This document shows, in pieces, positions 12,460 to 21,406 of a stretch of DNA of 39,540 nucleotides; position 1 is the first letter of the stretch; the number at the start of each line of letters is the position of its first letter. Under the pieces are notes generated by a model that was given only the letters and a program-made list of their open reading frames with translations, did no database searches and had not been told where the DNA came from. Made by a program: the position numbers and the translations under genes. Source of the DNA: Sulfobacillus benefaciens (GTDB lineage Bacteria; Bacillota; Sulfobacillia; Sulfobacillales; Sulfobacillaceae); NCBI GenBank assembly GCA_003023725.1, contig PXYT01000035.1, positions 1 to 39,540 on the forward strand, in the 5' to 3' direction.

Positions 12460-13203
12460 TCAGGCGTGGCGTTGAAACAGTGCCGGAGCCACCGCCTTGA
12501 GGCCAAATTGCGGGGCGTCAAGTAAGGTTTCCGTAGCCCCAATAAACAAAAACCCCCCGATTTTGATGGCATTCACCAAATTTTCCAGAACCCGGTGGCG
12601 TGCTTCATGAGAAAAATAGATCAAAACATAGCGGCTCATGACCACATCAAAACTCCGCACCGGGGGTTTTTCCGCCAGCAAATCGTGGAGTTCCCAATGA
12701 ATCGCATTGTGCGCCGCCGCACTGAGCGACCAGGTGCCATCTTCTTCCCACCGCCACATGTCGCGGTAGGGATCCAATAACGGGCTGAAGCTCTCTTTGG
12801 GAAAGCGTAACCGCCTGGCTTGCTGAAGTGTCACGACATCCGTATCCGTCGCCCAAATATCCCAAAAGTGCCCATGCAAGCGCTCCATCAGCCATAGGGA
12901 AGCCGGCTCGGCTCCCCACGAACATCCGGCAGACCAGGCTCTACCACTTGCCAGACCGCTAGCATGCAACTTCTGGGCCAACCGTTGCCAGTAGGGGGGA
13001 TCGCGGAAAAATTCGGTGACATGCACTGTCAGGAAATTTTTCAAGCGCGCCCCAAGTTCTGGGTCGCGGCGTAATCCGTCCACAAGTCCTGAGAGGTCGG
13101 TATATCCTTCCCGAAGCAAAAAACCCCACAATCTGCGTTCCACTTGATCGCGGCGATAATCTTCCAAAAACAAAAGACCTTCCTGGCTCAAATACTGCAC
13201 CAA
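12460..13203 (-). CDS. cheR: Chemotaxis protein methyltransferase CheR
   Basis: The 247-residue protein has the CheR layout: N-terminal helical domain (QVERRLWGFLLREGYTDLSGLVDGLRRDP), the signature LTVHVTEFFRDPPYWQRL, the SAM site WSAGCSWGAEPASLWLM (usually CSTGEEPYS), VVMSRYVLIYFS, and KIGGFLFIGATETL. It methylates glutamates of the chemoreceptor using S-adenosylmethionine. It is the last gene of the chemosensory operon, 28 bases after cheB. The start is uncertain: the GTG at 13203 has no ribosome site, and no ATG exists in frame between it and the cheB stop. Translation coupled to cheB, perhaps from a rare start, is possible. The family call itself is secure. Confidence 0.92.
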   Translation of the reverse strand: MVQYLSQEGLLFLEDYRRDQVERRLWGFLLREGYTDLSGLVDGLRRDPELGARLKNFLTVHVTEFFRDPPYWQRLAQKLHASGLASGRAWSAGCSWGAEPASLWLMERLHGHFWDIWATDTDVVTLQQARRLRFPKESFSPLLDPYRDMWRWEEDGTWSLSAAAHNAIHWELHDLLAEKPPVRSFDVVMSRYVLIYFSHEARHRVLENLVNAIKIGGFLFIGATETLLDAPQFGLKAVAPALFQRHA

Positions 13204-13231: not shown

Positions 13232-14239
13232 TTAGCCGTGATGAATCACCTCATTGAGCCAGCCTCCGATTTCATCGAGTCCCGCTACGAGATCGCCCGC
13301 TGTTTTGTTTAACGCGGCCTGTGGCATGCCCCAGACAACCGCTGTCGCCGGATCCTGAACCACGACTTGACCTCCTGCGTGATGACACTGATAAGCCGCT
13401 TCCGCGCCATCCTCGCCCATCCCCGTCAAAATCGTTAAGCACACCGCGTTGCCGAATGTCCGCACCGCGTCCAGTGCTGTGACGTCGATAGCGGGAATCA
13501 CACCATGAACCCGGGGTCCGGGCTCACTCCAGACCCCGCCTTCATTCAGGCGAAGATGATACCCGCCCCGCGCTAAGATAATCTGCTGCGGATCCCACCC
13601 CCAAGTCTCGGGAGCCAAGGGAGATTCTCTAACCGGCTGCCCGACGATTTGACTCAGCCGGGAGGCCAAAGATGCGGTAAAATTCGGGGGCATATGCTGG
13701 ACCAGCACCACCGGAACGGACCATGGCGCCTTGAAATGTCTCAAAACCTGGCCGATGGCCTTGGGCCCTCCGGTGGACGCTCCAATGACCACAGCTTTGG
13801 GCCGGGTTGCTCGAGTGGCCGATTTCCGGGGCACGGCATGGAGATTCTTCCCGTTAAAGGGACGGCGCAGCGCTTCATATTTTTCGATAATCTGAGTAAT
13901 AACATGATCAAGCGGTTCTTGCGGAGACGGTTTGCCGACAAAATCCGACGCGCCCGCTTCCAAAGCTCGCCAGGTCAGATCCTGGCCCCCCTGGGTCTGG
14001 GTGGAGACCATAATGACCGGACCGTTCCATAGAGCTCGCATCGCCCTAACAGTCTCGATTCCGTCCATATTCGGCATCAGCACGTCCATGGTGACGAGAT
14101 CGGGCAGCAACCGGGACAATTCCGCCACCGCCGCCTCACCGTTGGCGATACCCACAGCCTCCCAGCCCCGCCGCCGAAAACGGTCCTTGAGCACAAACCG
14201 CACGTAGGCCGAGTCATCGACGATCATAACAACCGGCAT
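13232..14239 (-). CDS. cheB: Chemotaxis response regulator, protein-glutamate methylesterase CheB
   Basis: The 335-residue protein is a receiver joined to a methylesterase. The receiver (1-120) has Asp8/Asp9, the phosphoacceptor Asp52 (TMDVLMPNMDG), Ser/Thr in MVSTQ and Lys in VGKPS. The catalytic triad of the esterase is visible as Ser155 (IGASTGGP), His182 (LVQHMPPNFTASL) and Asp277 (GMGEDGAE). Phosphorylated CheB removes methyl groups from receptor glutamates and so adapts the MCP. The start chosen is the ATG at 14239, ten bases after AAAGGAG; the ATG at 14248 would be almost touching that site. It sits between cheY and cheR in the operon. Confidence 0.95.
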   Translation of the reverse strand: MPVVMIVDDSAYVRFVLKDRFRRRGWEAVGIANGEAAVAELSRLLPDLVTMDVLMPNMDGIETVRAMRALWNGPVIMVSTQTQGGQDLTWRALEAGASDFVGKPSPQEPLDHVITQIIEKYEALRRPFNGKNLHAVPRKSATRATRPKAVVIGASTGGPKAIGQVLRHFKAPWSVPVVLVQHMPPNFTASLASRLSQIVGQPVRESPLAPETWGWDPQQIILARGGYHLRLNEGGVWSEPGPRVHGVIPAIDVTALDAVRTFGNAVCLTILTGMGEDGAEAAYQCHHAGGQVVVQDPATAVVWGMPQAALNKTAGDLVAGLDEIGGWLNEVIHHG

Positions 14240-14282
14240 AGAGCCCATGCTCCTTTATTTTCATGATGGAAAGAGCTTTTCT

Positions 14283-14636
14283 TTATGACAAAACTTTATT
14301 TAAGGATGCCAGGACGCGCTCAGGCTCATAAGGCTTGACAATGAAATCCCGGGCACCGTGTTGGATAGCCTGGATGACCATGGCTTGCTGGCCCAAAGCA
14401 GACACCATGATGACATTAGCCCCGGGATCCTCCGCCTTGATGGCCTTCAATGCATCAATGCCGCTCATTTCCGGCATAGTAATATCCATTAACACGCAAT
14501 CAGGGTGAAGGGCCCCATATTTTTCTACGGCTTCTTGACCGTTACCCGCTTCTTCCACCTCATAACCGTCTTGTGTCAGCAATTTCTTTAACCGCAAGCG
14601 CATGAATGCCGCGTCATCGACAATAAGTACCCTCAT
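14283..14636 (-). CDS. cheY: Single-domain response regulator CheY
   Basis: The 117-residue receiver domain has all key residues: Asp7 and Asp8, phosphoacceptor Asp51 (LMDITMPEMSG), Ser79 (MVSALGQ) and Lys101 (IVKPYEP). No output domain follows. CheY receives phosphate from CheA and acts on the motility apparatus, probably the flagellar switch (FliM) in Gram-positive relatives, although no flagellar gene is near. Its ATG overlaps the stop of the upstream cheC-like gene by four bases (ATGA), so translation is coupled. Confidence 0.95.
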   Translation of the reverse strand: MRVLIVDDAAFMRLRLKKLLTQDGYEVEEAGNGQEAVEKYGALHPDCVLMDITMPEMSGIDALKAIKAEDPGANVIMVSALGQQAMVIQAIQHGARDFIVKPYEPERVLASLNKVLS

Positions 14637-15217
14637 TGCCTTGGTCCTCCCCTCTGCCCGAAATCTTGATCAGACCGGAGGGGAACAATCAGAATTTCCC
14701 CGCTCAGAGCCTGGCCTGTCACCCGAAATATCGCTTCCGTAATTAACACCCGCTCGTTACGCGAAAACGACGGAAAGACCTCTTCCCTCCGTCCGTGCAA
14801 AACGTGGGGAATCGTCGGTTCAAAGGGGGTTTGAAAAAGATTGGCAAACACGTTCAGAAACGCTGTCCCCACCACGTTGCCAACCTCCGCGAAAGCCGAC
14901 AAACCCACATCATCCAAGGGCAATTCCATTTCCTCTCCCATCATCGCGGAAACCAGCCTCCGACAATGATCGGGCGAAAAAATCAGCATGATCTGCGCCG
15001 TTAACAACCCTTTGGCTCCTAAGTGCACGACACAATATTGAGGGTCATTACCTGCGTTAAACCGCTCCAGAACATCGCCCCAATTCTCCTCATTCACTGC
15101 CCTGTCTTCCATCATAAAATCCAGTCCGGTCATCTGGCTTAAGGCACGGCCGGCCTCATCCAGACCGGGTCCGCAAATTTTCCCCCAAATCGTCAGCACC
15201 TCATCAACTTGAGCCAT
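14633..15217 (-). CDS. CheC/CheX-family CheY-P phosphatase-like protein with one active site
   Basis: The 194-residue protein matches the CheC/FliY/CheX fold. The phosphatase consensus [DS]xxxExxN appears once, as Ser107-Glu111-Asn114 in LSAFAEVGNVVGTAFLNVFANLF. The position of the first site of two-site CheC proteins (normally EIGNIG-x-GNAATALS) reads KICGPGLDEAGRALSQM, so Glu and Asn are gone while the following ALSQ is kept. It therefore looks like a CheC in which only the second site survives. Such enzymes dephosphorylate CheY-P, and CheC also partners with CheD, which is not seen here. The stop overlaps the cheY start by four bases. Start ATG at 15217 follows GGGGAGGAA. Confidence 0.88.
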   Translation of the reverse strand: MAQVDEVLTIWGKICGPGLDEAGRALSQMTGLDFMMEDRAVNEENWGDVLERFNAGNDPQYCVVHLGAKGLLTAQIMLIFSPDHCRRLVSAMMGEEMELPLDDVGLSAFAEVGNVVGTAFLNVFANLFQTPFEPTIPHVLHGRREEVFPSFSRNERVLITEAIFRVTGQALSGEILIVPLRSDQDFGQRGGPRQ

Positions 15218-15232: not shown

Positions 15233-16261
15233 CTATGCCGAGCCCCGCGATCCGGGCCACAGCCGCTCCCGGTAAATGCCCGTGATTACGCGGTTTTGCT
15301 GGTTGACTTCTCTCAGATCAACAATGTTTCCCCGTTCCCTGCCGCTCAATAACCCGATGGTTGGTCGAGCTGGCCAGTCCCACGGGACCTCTCTGACAAC
15401 CGCCACATCGTGGTTGTCCACGACAACCACCTGTCCGGTAGCATAAGGGGCCACCGTTCTTTGCAATCTTGTGACTGTCTCCAAAGAAAAATCCACGCCC
15501 GCTCCCCCGATTATCCATTCCAAGGCCTCATGAGCCGGCAGCGAATGGTTATCGGTACGAAACACCAAAGTCAAGAACTCTTCAGCCAGTCCCAGGATCA
15601 TGGCCCCCCGGTATATGTCCACTCCTTTTAGCGTCGGCATTCCGTTGCCATCATACCGGGCGTGATGCTGGAGCAGCGCCGTCATGGCAGGAGCCGGTAT
15701 CTGGAACTGTCTCAATTGAGCGGCCATTTGAAGACCGTGGCCCGGATCGGGATCGAGAACTTCTCCTGTTTTCAGTCCCCCGTGATGAAATCCCATCAGC
15801 ATCGCAGCCAAGGTATACGCCTGGGTCCATTCCGGAACCAGTTCATGGCCGAGGCGCATGACCAACGCCACCAAATTCACATAAAACGTCAAAAATGGCG
15901 TCCCCACCTGATAGACACCGATCAATTCGAAAGCCTGCCGATGACGATCCAGTTGCTCATCCCATATCTTCCGCACAATCCTTTGAGCCTCGCGGATAAT
16001 ATCCCAGTTCAAATCCCCGCTTTTGGCCGCCCACTGGGTCATTTCATCAATGATCGCCGCCGGCAGGGCCGGAGCCGTGTCGATATCCTCGAATCCCGGC
16101 CACTTAACCGGCAGAGCCGGGATATCCCACCGGGAAAGAGCGTCGATCACAGATTCTGTCAAAATGACGCCCTCACGCAGCAAAATTCTGCCGTCTGTGC
16201 TTCTGAGCGCGTCCGCACTCACATCTCCCGGCTGTAACTGGCTAATCGGCAATAAGCGCAT
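15233..16261 (-). CDS. Degenerate HD-GYP-like protein in chemotaxis operon
   Basis: The 342-residue protein begins like HD-GYP regulators (LLPISQLQPGDVSADALRSTDGRILLREGVILTESVIDAL). It then has a helical domain with HHARYDGNGMP at 199-209, equivalent to the HHExxDGxGYP motif. The central His-Asp of active enzymes (HDIGK) reads FHHGGLK at 158-164, and the first metal His appears lost. HD-GYP enzymes hydrolyse cyclic-di-GMP; the loss of HD and the change GYP to GMP make catalysis doubtful, so it may bind the nucleotide or act as a scaffold. A C-terminal extension of about 70 residues is not recognised. The start overlaps the cheA end by 20 bases, implying tight coupling to the kinase. Confidence 0.75.
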   Translation of the reverse strand: MRLLPISQLQPGDVSADALRSTDGRILLREGVILTESVIDALSRWDIPALPVKWPGFEDIDTAPALPAAIIDEMTQWAAKSGDLNWDIIREAQRIVRKIWDEQLDRHRQAFELIGVYQVGTPFLTFYVNLVALVMRLGHELVPEWTQAYTLAAMLMGFHHGGLKTGEVLDPDPGHGLQMAAQLRQFQIPAPAMTALLQHHARYDGNGMPTLKGVDIYRGAMILGLAEEFLTLVFRTDNHSLPAHEALEWIIGGAGVDFSLETVTRLQRTVAPYATGQVVVVDNHDVAVVREVPWDWPARPTIGLLSGRERGNIVDLREVNQQNRVITGIYRERLWPGSRGSA

Positions 16262-18959
16262 GTGTTCTGCCCCCCTTGTTGTCCATCCCCTGGTGTGAGG
16301 CTAAACCCACACGCCGGACCAATTCCCCGACATCCCATTTCGTGAGCACAAAATCGGCTCCGAGCTCTATACAATGTTCCTTTGATAAACGCCCGTCGAG
16401 TGAGGTATGGACAATGACGGAAATCCCGGGAAACTCTGCTTTCACCTGTTCCAGTAGGTGATACCCGTCCATTTTCGGCATTTCCACGTCGGTGACAACA
16501 ACATGTGGCAGATTTTGTGCCTGAGCCAGTCCCGTCATCAGAGCCTGGCCTTCTTCGTACGCTGTCACCTCCGCCCCTTGATTAATCAAGGCGGTGGTAA
16601 GTTTCTGACGGGCAAGACGCGAATCATCAGCCAAAAATACTTGCACTCCCCGAAGAGACGGGAGATGATCTTTTTGCTCACCTGCCACAGACTCGTTAGG
16701 CAGGATCTCGGACAGAACGGCGTCAAAATCAACCAATTGAATAACCATCCCTCCGACTTCGGCCAGTCCCATGATCACTTCCAGACCGTCATGATGAGGA
16801 ACCGGCTGAATCTGGCTCCAGGCTATGGGAACAATTTCCTTGACGATGTCAACCGACAACACGAAACGGTGTTGACTCATATGAACCACAATAAAATATC
16901 CCCCATCGTCTAAGTCGCCCGCATCCATCAACTTCTTTCCGGACAGAACCGGATAGGACTCCTCTCGAATCATGGTGACTCCTTCGACCAGAGGGTGCTG
17001 CCCGACAATCCGGTTCACGGGCCCTTGAAGCAAGACTTCTTGCACCTTATCGACGGAAATCCCATAGTACAAGGGCCCCACGCCAAATACGAGCCAGGAT
17101 GACCCGGGAACCTGACGCGTATTCTCGGCCGCGACAGGCTCCGGCAGTGCCGTACTGTCATTGTGTCCAACCTTTTCAGCCAGTCGTTTAACATCCATCA
17201 TCAAAGCCACCCGCCCGTCTCCCAATAAAGCCGCTCCGGTCATCCAGGGTATGAGGGGCATGACTCGGCCCAAGGGTTTAATCACCACATCCTGCTGACC
17301 CAATACGGTGTCAACAACAAATGCCATTTTCACGGCCCCGTCCTGAACCCGAATGACCATCTGAGGATCACTTCCCTCGATTTTCAGGAGCTGGCTCAGA
17401 ACCGTTACCTTGAGCGGATGCCCGTGATCATCTATCATATCGACCCCAAGGGTGTGCTTGACGTCGTCTTGGTGCCATGGTTCAATCCGTTCGACATTCA
17501 GCACCGGAATGCCCAACACTACCGGGCCGATGGCAATGAGCAGGGCGGATAAAATAGCCATGGTCATGGGCAGTTCCATGATAAAGCGGGTTCCCCGTCC
17601 CGGCTCCGACTCCACTCGAATGTCTCCATGCAACTGGTCCACCGTGTCTTTCACCACATCGAGTCCCACGCCTCGTCCGGATAAATCGCTCACCTGGTCT
17701 TTGGTCGAAAATCCGGGAAGAAACAGCATGGCCACCAAGGATTCGGAAGTGGCATTGCGGGCCTGATCGGCAGTCATGACGTCCCTTGCCACTGCCTTAT
17801 TCCGCAATCCATTCCAGTCAATTCCCCGTCCGTCGTCGGCGACCACAATCCGAACCCGCCCCTTTCGCGACGACGCCTGCAAGAAAATGTGACCGGCGAG
17901 GGGTTTCCCTTTTCGGAGGCGTTCTGAAGCTGTTTCAATGCCGTGATCGGCCGCATTGCGAATGAGATGAAGCAAGGGTTCGTGCAATCGATCCATCACC
18001 AGCCGATCCAGTTGAGTCTCGCCCCCTTCAACACTAAGGGTGATGTCTTTGGATAATTTACGGGCAATATCATGCACGGCCCGCGGATATTGATGAAAGA
18101 GGGTCGACAAGGGCAGCATCCGCGCTCTTAAGGTCATATCCTGTAAATTCATCGCGATCTGTTTCACGCCGTCCAGGGCCTCTTTTACCGCCGGGGATGT
18201 CTCATTCAGCCGGTGGGAAAGTTCGGCGTGACGCATTAGCAGTTCTCCCAGTCCGTCCAAGAGTCCCTCCAAAACCTGAGGATGAATACGAATCATGTTC
18301 TCCCGTTGCTGAGCCTGCGCAGCTGTTGTTCCCCGGGATTTCGGATCCTCCTCCATACTCTCGATTTGCTCCCACTCTTCAACTTCGGGAATGGAACGAA
18401 AAATCTCGGGCCAGTCTACCGGCGGCTGGTCCCCAATCGGTTCAAAGCTCACGTCGACAGTATTGCCGTCAAAGCGTTCGAACTCCTGAATATCCTCCCC
18501 AGACGGACGGGATGAGACAATGCGGGCCAATTCACCCACACGCTGAAGGATCTGAAACGCCCGGGCTCCCTTTAACGCACAAGCCGGCGACAGTGTGATA
18601 CGCCAGTGCTGCGGACTTGATTCCGCATTCGCTTCCGAATTCACCCGACCATTCAGCTCTTGGCGAATGAAGTCTACAAAATTAAGAACGTCTAGGCGTA
18701 AGCTCTCTTCCAGTTGATCGTCAGGATTTTTGCGGATCTGATCGAGCCGATCCTCAAGGTTGTGGGCCCTAGACGACCAATCATCGAGTCCGACCATGGC
18801 CGCCGAGCCTTTTATGGTGTGCGCGGCCCGAAATGCGGCGGCGACATCCGGCTCCCCGGACAGCCAGGAATCCTCGAGTGTCTGCAGTAAGTCGCCGAGT
18901 TCGGCCACGAAAAGCTCTTTTTCTTCGGGCGAATCCCACGTGAGTTCATAAAACGTCAT
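16242..18959 (-). CDS. cheA: Hybrid chemotaxis histidine kinase: CheA fused to a CheV-like CheW-receiver module
   Basis: The 905-residue protein contains, in order: HPt domain with phospho-His47 (AAHTIKGSA); a region resembling P2 (about 118-175); dimerisation P3 (about 222-300); kinase domain with N box HEPLLHLIRNAADHGIE (326-342), G1 DDGRGID (375-381) and G2 GRGVGLDVV (428-436); P5 CheW-like domain (about 468-595); a second CheW-like domain (about 620-753); and a C-terminal receiver (771-885) with Asp778/779, phosphoacceptor Asp824 and Lys874. The last two together equal CheV. A normal CheA is about 650-700 residues. The start is the ATG at 18959 after GGGGAG, overlapping the cheW stop by four bases; upstream in-frame sequence lies in cheW. 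Confidence 0.93.
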   Translation of the reverse strand: MTFYELTWDSPEEKELFVAELGDLLQTLEDSWLSGEPDVAAAFRAAHTIKGSAAMVGLDDWSSRAHNLEDRLDQIRKNPDDQLEESLRLDVLNFVDFIRQELNGRVNSEANAESSPQHWRITLSPACALKGARAFQILQRVGELARIVSSRPSGEDIQEFERFDGNTVDVSFEPIGDQPPVDWPEIFRSIPEVEEWEQIESMEEDPKSRGTTAAQAQQRENMIRIHPQVLEGLLDGLGELLMRHAELSHRLNETSPAVKEALDGVKQIAMNLQDMTLRARMLPLSTLFHQYPRAVHDIARKLSKDITLSVEGGETQLDRLVMDRLHEPLLHLIRNAADHGIETASERLRKGKPLAGHIFLQASSRKGRVRIVVADDGRGIDWNGLRNKAVARDVMTADQARNATSESLVAMLFLPGFSTKDQVSDLSGRGVGLDVVKDTVDQLHGDIRVESEPGRGTRFIMELPMTMAILSALLIAIGPVVLGIPVLNVERIEPWHQDDVKHTLGVDMIDDHGHPLKVTVLSQLLKIEGSDPQMVIRVQDGAVKMAFVVDTVLGQQDVVIKPLGRVMPLIPWMTGAALLGDGRVALMMDVKRLAEKVGHNDSTALPEPVAAENTRQVPGSSWLVFGVGPLYYGISVDKVQEVLLQGPVNRIVGQHPLVEGVTMIREESYPVLSGKKLMDAGDLDDGGYFIVVHMSQHRFVLSVDIVKEIVPIAWSQIQPVPHHDGLEVIMGLAEVGGMVIQLVDFDAVLSEILPNESVAGEQKDHLPSLRGVQVFLADDSRLARQKLTTALINQGAEVTAYEEGQALMTGLAQAQNLPHVVVTDVEMPKMDGYHLLEQVKAEFPGISVIVHTSLDGRLSKEHCIELGADFVLTKWDVGELVRRVGLASHQGMDNKGGRTHALIAD

Positions 18960-19393
18960 GACAGCATCTCCCCGCTCGAGTCCATAAAATCCCACAAGAG
19001 AAAGGGACCGTAAGCATGCCAAGTAAAAACAAACTTCCCCCCCCACTGAAAATAGCCATAAATGAGCGGCGAGAGCCGGCCCTCCACAATGTCCGGCACG
19101 CCCTTCGGCACCGGTGTTTCAACAATACCCTCCACTTCTTCAACACCCAGACCCATTAATTCTCCCTCGCCCATGACCACTATCACGTGCCGCAGGGGGC
19201 GGGAGGCATCATGGCCCAGATAAAACCGGGGATCCACGACGGGAATCATCCTTCCGCGCAAATTAATCAATCCGGCTAGTCCCGGAGGAGCTCCGGGGAG
19301 AAGCGTCAAAGACGGGGTGCGAATAACTTCGGCCACTCCTTCGATCGGCAAAGCAAAGGTCGATTCCTGGAACGCAAAGGTTAATACCTGCAT
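18956..19393 (-). CDS. cheW: Chemotaxis coupling protein CheW
   Basis: The 145-residue protein is one CheW domain: VLTFAFQESTFALPIEGVAEVIRTP at the N-terminus and the conserved GLAGLINLRGRMIPVVDPRFYLG block, where the receptor- and kinase-binding loops lie. The following VIVVMGEGELMGLGVEEVEGIV fits the second half of the fold. It links the MCP signalling tip to CheA. The end is less typical, with a Trp/Phe-rich tail. The gene lies twelve bases after the mcp stop and overlaps cheA by four, so the three are one translation-coupled unit. A GGGGGGTCAGGCG tract precedes the ATG. Confidence 0.92.
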   Translation of the reverse strand: MQVLTFAFQESTFALPIEGVAEVIRTPSLTLLPGAPPGLAGLINLRGRMIPVVDPRFYLGHDASRPLRHVIVVMGEGELMGLGVEEVEGIVETPVPKGVPDIVEGRLSPLIYGYFQWGGKFVFTWHAYGPFLLWDFMDSSGEMLS

Positions 19394-19405: not shown

Positions 19406-21406
19406 CTATAACCGATACTGCGATACGAGTTGATCGAGTCTGGCCGCCACCTGTGAAAGTTCCTTGGCCTTTTGGGCCAAGGTTCCAACTGATTCCGCCA
19501 CGTGCTGACTGGTACTGGCCACTTCTTCCGTGGAAGCTGCCGTTTCTTCCGATATGGCCGCAAGGCCCTGAATGGTGTCGGTGACCTCTCGGGAGGCCGC
19601 AGCCATTTGATGAGCCGAAGCAGAATTGTCCTGCGCAATTTTGGAGATTTGGCGCATTCCTTGATCCACACCTTCACTTTCAGTATCCAGACTGGAAATG
19701 GCCTGGCTCATTTGACCGATTTCCCCGGCTACCTCTGTCACCGAATGCTCCATTTCTTCTAGAGCGTTCCGGGTTTCTTCACCTACCGCTTGTCCCGTGA
19801 TTACTTCCTGGCGGCCTCGTTCCATGGAAGATACGGATTGCTGTACCGTCGTTTGGATCGTACGGATCAAGTCGCTGACATTTTTCGCCTCCCTCGCCGA
19901 CTGTTCTGCCAGTTTTCTCACCTCATCCGCAACTACGGCAAATCCACGTCCGTGTTCTCCCGCTCTGGCCGCTTCAATATTGGCGTTCAATGCTAATAGA
20001 TTGGTTTGTGCGGCAATTTCCTGAATGGTGCCCACTATGGTTCCAATTTTCTCCGAATGTTTCCCAAGTTCGCCGATGGCTTCGGCCGTCATGCGTGTAA
20101 CATCGGCGATTCGGCTCATTCGGGATAAAGTTTCTTCCACCTGGTTACGCCCCACTTGGGCAGCCTGGCGCGATTTATTGGATAGCTGCTCCATACGGGT
20201 TGCCGTGTTCTGAACGCTCAGACGGGCGGACTTCATTTCATTGAGCGCCGCTTCTCCATTTTGCGCCTGATCCGCCTGCATCAAGGCTCCTGTAGCCACT
20301 TGCTCCACCGCCGCCTTCAGTTGCTGCATTGACGCAGCAATTTGCTGCAATCCCTGCGATGATTCGCCGGTGGCCTGTGCACTCTGGGAAATCGCAGCTG
20401 AAATCTGATGGGTGGCGTCTGTGGTTTGGGATACGAGCCCGCTCAGTTCGTTCACATGTTCATGGATCAAATGGCCCATGTCCTGCATGGCGGAAATGAT
20501 TTCCCTAAGACGCGCATGCATGGCGACAATGGCGTGGCCGAGCTTGTCCTTGGAAGATTTCGCTTCGGGCGCAACCGTCAGGTTCCCATCCCCGATTGAT
20601 TCGGCAATCCGTCCCGCCTCCGACAAATAGGCCATCATGGCTCGAAACGAGTTGGCGAGATCGCCCAGTTCATCACGACTTCGATAACTGACTTCGTCCT
20701 CGATATTGCCTTCGGCCAAATGCTCGGCGACTTTTCTCAAGGATCTCAAGGGACGAATGGCTAAATATTGCATTCCGACGATCAAGAGAGCCATAAACGC
20801 CAACTCTACACCGACTACAATCCAAACCAACAACACCGTAGAGCTTTGATTCTGACGGACGCCGCCGAGAGCGTTATTCATGCTGGTTTCGCCGATTTTC
20901 GTCAACTGATTCAAAATCGTCATAATGTCGGCGGATACTGCCGTGTTCCCAGCCGTCTGGAGCACAATCGCCTGATTCAGGTGGTGAGAAACAATATCCT
21001 GCTTGACCTTCTTGGCGTCCGCCTGATAGCCGTCAAATGCGTGATCGAGACGGCTCAGTGACACAAGTGCCTCAGGATTGCTGCCCCGGGTCGTCTGCGC
21101 CGTTTTGAGATCGGTCGTAAACTGTTTTTCAAACCCGGTCGCCTGATGATAGGTTTGTGCCGCCAAAGCCGAGTGATTACCTGCTTTTTCCAGCAACACG
21201 TACATATTCATTTGGTCGTCATAACCGTAAAATGCTGTTTGCATACCGTGCAGTGCCCTGTTGAAGACCAGGTTACGGTGGCTAATGTTAACAATATTGC
21301 TCAGTGTATTTTGGGAGTGGGAAATAATTAAAGCGTTTTGAGCAAGGGTCACGGCCATGACCGTGCCGGCAAAAATGGAGATTTTTGCAGTCCATTTCAT
21401 CGTCAT
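19406..21406 (-). CDS. Methyl-accepting chemotaxis protein
   Basis: The 666-residue receptor has TM1 (about 8-28), an outer helical sensing domain of about 155 residues of the four-helix-bundle type, TM2 (about 186-210), a HAMP domain ([37 protein letters not shown]), and a long coiled-coil cytoplasmic domain. The signalling hairpin tip includes [20 protein letters not shown] and [18 protein letters not shown], the most conserved MCP sequence. Ligand unknown: the outer domain has no named motif that I can see. It is the first gene of the chemosensory operon, with AAAGGACT before the ATG and a leader of about 45-50 bases that includes a perfect hairpin. Confidence 0.95.

Follow-up and report, generated by a model that had tools for sequence, protein, structure and literature searches.

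A CheA kinase with a probable CheV-derived tail in Sulfobacillus benefaciens and its relatives

The role of CheV is still debated, and it has been regarded as an adaptor, a phosphate sink or an adaptation device. The locus described here raises the question whether a CheV has been joined to a CheA kinase, and if so, from where its CheV part came and what it does there. The first-pass annotation of a 39,540-nucleotide stretch of Sulfobacillus benefaciens DNA (the window) had placed a 905-residue CheA at 16242-18959, with a second CheW-like domain and a receiver behind its own P5; it had called the protein a CheA-CheV fusion and considered its layout less common. The coordinates hold, the gene being an uninterrupted open reading frame on the minus strand, and the label is upheld, as the tail scores highest against CheV models and groups with CheVs. 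The matter of rarity is taken up below.

The fusion gene, its domains and its neighbours

The features of the locus, in order of their coordinates, are the following:

12460..13203, minus strand: cheR (Pfam)
13232..14248, minus strand: cheB (Pfam)
14283..14636, minus strand: cheY (Pfam)
14633..15217, minus strand: CheC/CheX-type phosphatase with ExxN motif (Pfam CheX, 29.7 bits at a cut-off of 27; alignment)
15233..16261, minus strand: degenerate HD-type protein (HD_5 slightly below cut-off), overlapping the 3' end of cheA
16242..18959, minus strand: cheA-cheV fusion gene, 905 aa, P1-P2-P3-P4-P5-CheW2-REC
16314..16640, minus strand: CheV-type receiver, residues 774-882, acceptor Asp824 (Pfam Response_reg; profile scores; fold)
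16707..17096, minus strand: CheW2, a CheV-type CheW domain, residues 622-751 (PF01584, 71.8 bits; CheV profile scores; trees)
17175..17546, minus strand: P5, the first CheW-like domain (CheW1; PF01584, 61.1 bits)
17562..17993, minus strand: HATPase_c/P4, residues 323-466 (Pfam; alignment with solved CheA P4, Z about 19)
18369..18602, minus strand: P2 domain, residues 120-197 (Pfam P2, E 7.2e-12)
18717..18917, minus strand: P1/Hpt domain, residues 15-81, phospho-acceptor His47 (Pfam; invariant in 18 sequences)
18956..19393, minus strand: separate cheW (Pfam), with a 4-base overlap with the cheA start
19406..21406, minus strand: methyl-accepting chemotaxis protein (MCP; Pfam MCPsignal and HAMP)

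The core of P1, P3, P4 and P5, with its phospho-accepting His and ATP-binding boxes, is that of a CheA histidine kinase. P3 (H-kinase_dim, residues 221-277) reaches 20.7 bits, below the Pfam cut-off of 23, and was recovered with a local profile. In a profile search of the own genome (PF01584, cut-off 23.5 bits), P5/CheW1 and CheW2 appear as separate matches within one frame, and the separate CheW is the third and last match of the whole genome. The fusion protein is the only CheA of the single CheW-containing chemotaxis cluster of this genome. Both the second CheW-like domain, anticipated at about residues 620-753, and the receiver with its phosphoacceptor Asp824 are thereby borne out, and a separate CheW and CheY are encoded alongside, as had been stated. 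The P2 domain and the CheC/CheX-like operon gene, missing from the first-pass annotation, are present as well.

Read from right to left, the operon-like cluster consists of MCP, cheW, cheA, the HD-type gene, the CheC/CheX-type phosphatase, cheY, cheB and cheR. The phosphatase gene is conserved in relatives. The HD-type protein is also kept in relatives; it looks degenerate because its HD dyad region is changed, and the HHxxxDGxGxP part is retained. The genome contains two MCP signalling domains and one FliG. The description of S. acidophilus as lacking flagella (PMC3558970) counts against an account of the protein as a chemotaxis-kinase fusion. A transposase-like ORF, of IS type as judged by eye, lies on the same contig at 35612-36880 (plus strand).

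In the full-length AlphaFold model (mean pLDDT 70.9, with linkers of low confidence), residues 618-754 match CheW 2ch4_W with Z 19.2 and rmsd 1.9 (137 aligned), and residues 771-895 match receivers with Z of about 20. When CheW2-REC was modelled alone and aligned with CheVs of non-plasmid origin, its pLDDT was 86; the PDB matches of this smaller model were receivers only, and the CheW fold is therefore taken from the full-length model. The PDB sequence match ranked first, 8h2i P22, was rejected as a repeat artefact.

In all 18 sequences (the window and 17 relatives), His47 of P1 and the receiver residues D778, D779, D824, T852 and K874 are invariant, and so is the Glu641/Arg665 pair of CheW2. 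That none of these five active-site positions varies in the receiver implies that this domain is in use. The linker between P5 and CheW2 is near-constant in the 18 sequences (24-29 residues), and that between CheW2 and the receiver, 21-23 residues long, falls within the CheV range of 21-29.

Ancestry of the CheW-receiver tail

When CheW2-REC was used as a query against 299 genomes of the phylum, almost all matches were free CheV-type proteins (E down to 1e-28), whose open frames of 290-346 codons were aligned nearly over their full length. Single-domain trees (CheW 144 columns, REC 131) are too short for deep forks, so profile scores were used. With a CheV set collected partly through similarity to the tail itself, CheW2 scores on average 104.9 bits against CheV, 71.7 against CheW and 11.1 against F5 CheW2, and the P5 of the clade itself gives 7.5 bits. 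CheV is still best (84-91 bits) when each model is made from four sequences. For the receiver, the mean scores are 91.0 against CheV-REC, 66.9 against P5-fused REC, 59.5 against CheY and 44.7 against F5-REC; here the margin is weaker with four-sequence models, CheV not being best in one of three draws. Further, CheV-like signatures run along CheW2 and are missing from F5 CheW2.

The tree of the CheW-REC block (77 rows) places the clade with CheV, apart from F5 and from P5-REC CheAs (99/96), the clade's branches being long and compositionally skewed and the Thermomicrobium and Halomonas rows being long branches too. With the longest branches removed, forcing the clade together with F5 is rejected (AU p = 0.00038, CheW2-REC tree). 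Forcing all receiver-bearing CheAs together is weakly rejected (p 0.030), and so is forcing CheV to exclude the clade (AU p 0.032). To judge from the sequences, there is modest support that the clade may be nested inside CheV rather than be sister to all CheV.

The first-pass annotation had recognized in the CheW-receiver pair the architecture of CheV; profile scores and trees extend this to ancestry. By both profile and ancestry, the tail is a CheW domain followed by a receiver of the CheV kind, and it is not an independent polypeptide. Since CheA and tail share one frame, the protein is to be counted as a CheA whose tail derives from CheV, and not among the CheVs. According to Ortega and Zhulin, a Gly/Ala marker at His+7 is reportedly tied to CheV in enterobacteria. 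This marker is mixed in the clade, with A in the subgroup of the window and G in most others, and was left out of the argument.

Could the protein be a mere new sequence of the described F5 class? The domain order is identical, most double-CheW CheAs are F5, the layout is present in the CheAs of L011, Azospirillum and Microvirga, and the duplicated CheW and the receiver by which the class is characterized (PMC10782961) are both there. Core and tail, however, do not fall with F5, of which the sample was small (4-5 sequences, partly plasmid-borne). In the kinase-core tree F5 joins F3-like and Nitrospirota CheAs on a 98/97 branch from which the clade is excluded, the joint placement of CheW2-REC fails the AU test given above, F5 CheW2 gives just 11 bits against the clade, and the fusion protein possesses P2. 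Trees and AU test lead us to exclude F5 membership, which we regard as highly improbable. As to its own affinities, the kinase core lies near Bacillota CheAs in a quick tree, and its position is left unresolved in a careful one. A different origin would follow from the published view of double-CheW CheAs outside one class, which Berry et al. read as "independent duplication events" with CheV unmentioned (PMC10782961): the tail would then be a duplicate of P5 from within its own CheA, to which a captured CheY-like receiver was added. This is hardly credible, since CheW2 finds so little in the clade's own P5 (7.5 bits against 104.9 for CheV) and bears CheV-like signatures throughout; on the profile scores we rule it out.

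Distribution within the order and beyond

From the order, 18 full-length members were recovered, the window included; every one has the same layout, and it is in these 18 that the receiver was confirmed directly. A census of CheW domains in 42 genomes of the order found them in 24, of which 23 have two CheW in one long frame. In the exception, G008, the CheA is of a different kind, its receiver following P5 directly. In these probably acid-loving bacteria the layout is the rule within the order (probably Sulfobacillales), not rare. The same architecture being standard in the clade, the rarity suggested by the first-pass annotation is not upheld. Its wording "less common" stands in so far as about 8% of all CheAs carry a pair of CheW domains (Berry 2023, PMC10782961), and fails where these are found in 99% of F5 CheAs, in some F1 and in one F10 CheA (PMC10782961). 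The layout as such was already known, because Berry et al. report double-CheW CheAs outside the clade (PMC10782961).

Class members outside the order have a CheA, where present, without the CheW2-REC tail. No similar fusion outside the order was found in 299 genomes of the phylum, 121 genomes of the class or the best 80 relatives, an absence limited by sampling; L011, among these best 80, shows the layout but groups with F5. The long frame of L140 is a three-CheW protein. A search for free CheV found none in the genomes of the order and none in the class sample, and a literature search on Sulfobacillus and CheA yielded nothing specific to the fusion protein.

Several side observations concern the chemosensory equipment of the order. 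One genome (G015) carries two copies of the fusion, at 3102-5741 of contig C8 and at 20764-23415 of contig C1 (frames of 906 and 1014 codons). Three-CheW proteins of 519-589 codons are encoded at G014:C37 18957-20396 and G022:C16 47117-48568, in clusters with a second kind of CheA, which suggests an additional chemosensory pathway in these two genomes. In the order-wide search, many genomes have FliG yet no detectable CheW, and species with flagellar genes and without a chemosensory system seem to be common in the order.

Taken together, CheV scores, trees, signatures, linker and the missing free CheV make a single independent CheA+CheV fusion the simplest reading. We think it likely that an ordinary CheA of the form P1-P2-P3-P4-P5 acquired a CheV at its C-terminus, and that this arrangement had become fixed by the time the order (probably Sulfobacillales) began to diversify. 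Probably this was one event in the ancestor of the order, independent of F5, in a lineage that dispensed with free CheV and kept P2 and the CheC/CheX-type phosphatase. On the best reading, the new part is not the layout but a fusion that is independent, lineage-wide and convergent with F5. If this is true, the CheA-CheW-REC layout has been reached in evolution by a second route. The evidence points to more than one origin of the double-CheW hybrid kinases, and domain layout alone should therefore not decide the chemosensory class.

Possible function and comparison with known systems

In the model that we propose, P5 and the tethered CheW2 would both occupy CheW-type positions in the receptor array, each kinase carrying its own CheV at a fixed ratio. 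From P1, phosphate would go both to CheY and to Asp824 in the tethered receiver. Once phosphorylated, this receiver would damp or adapt the output of the kinase in the way described for free CheV, and CheY-P would be removed by the CheC/CheX-type phosphatase of the operon. CheV itself docks at receptors in a CheW-like manner, its activity requires phosphorylation, and it has been suggested to act as a phosphate sink (PMC12691637, PMC4742279).

By analogy with H. pylori CheAY and R. centenum CheA3, it is plausible that the tethered receiver might act as a phosphate sink. In CheA3, >90% of the phosphate goes to its own tethered receiver, and with the D663A substitution the phosphate has a half-life of 80 min instead of 31 min (PMC3868531). 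Where a genome has a single CheA with a receiver, chemosensory phosphatases are lacking in 93% of cases, and most receiver-bearing CheAs are without P2 (PMC10782961). The presence of both a CheC/CheX-type phosphatase and P2 thus argues against a pure sink and makes an adaptation or cis-regulatory role a live rival. The receiver could, for example, regulate in cis the kinase or the dephosphorylation of P1, as in the Azorhizobium F5 CheA, whose receiver apparently has no sink action (PMC10782961). This precedent and the phosphatase speak for such a regulator; the precedents of CheV and CheAY, and the preference of CheA3 phosphate for its own receiver, favour the sink, so that we hold cis regulation to be possible, though rather unlikely. 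Similar doubt applies to the idea that CheW2 is mainly a structural tether, by which CheA would fill both P5 and CheW sites of the array rings, with the receiver being secondary. The invariant Glu641/Arg665 pair and the narrow length range of the P5-CheW2 linker would suit a tether; a receiver active site unchanged in all five residues, and the retention of a separate CheW, would not.

Whichever role the receiver has, a natural 1:1 fusion of CheV and kinase suggests that the job of CheV can be done in cis. The fusion offers a clean test system for the role of CheV, with one Asp in one protein.

Four known systems are close enough for comparison. With the F5-class CheAs (Azospirillum, Azorhizobium, R. 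centenum, Caulobacter), the fusion shares the order P1-P3-P4-P5-CheW-REC and the presence of a separate CheW and CheY in the operon. The CheW2 of F5 is without CheV signatures and scores low against CheV, whereas the CheW2-REC of the fusion is CheV-like and is attached to a non-F5 kinase core that includes P2. Multi-CheW CheAs other than F5 (some F1; an example is that of Thermomicrobium roseum, PMC10782961) have in common with it an extra CheW domain and a receiver; the T. roseum protein, with three CheW domains around a receiver, was read as a duplication (PMC10782961), whereas the evidence for the fusion points to the joining of a CheV. CheAY of Helicobacter and Campylobacter (F3) likewise carries a C-terminal receiver on CheA, but has no second CheW, and these genomes also encode free CheV beside cheA. 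Finally, the CheVs of B. subtilis, Salmonella and P. aeruginosa share with the tail the CheW domain and receiver, the linker length, the signature motifs and an intact acceptor Asp. They are free, separately made proteins, whereas the tail of the fusion is covalently bound 1:1 with its kinase.
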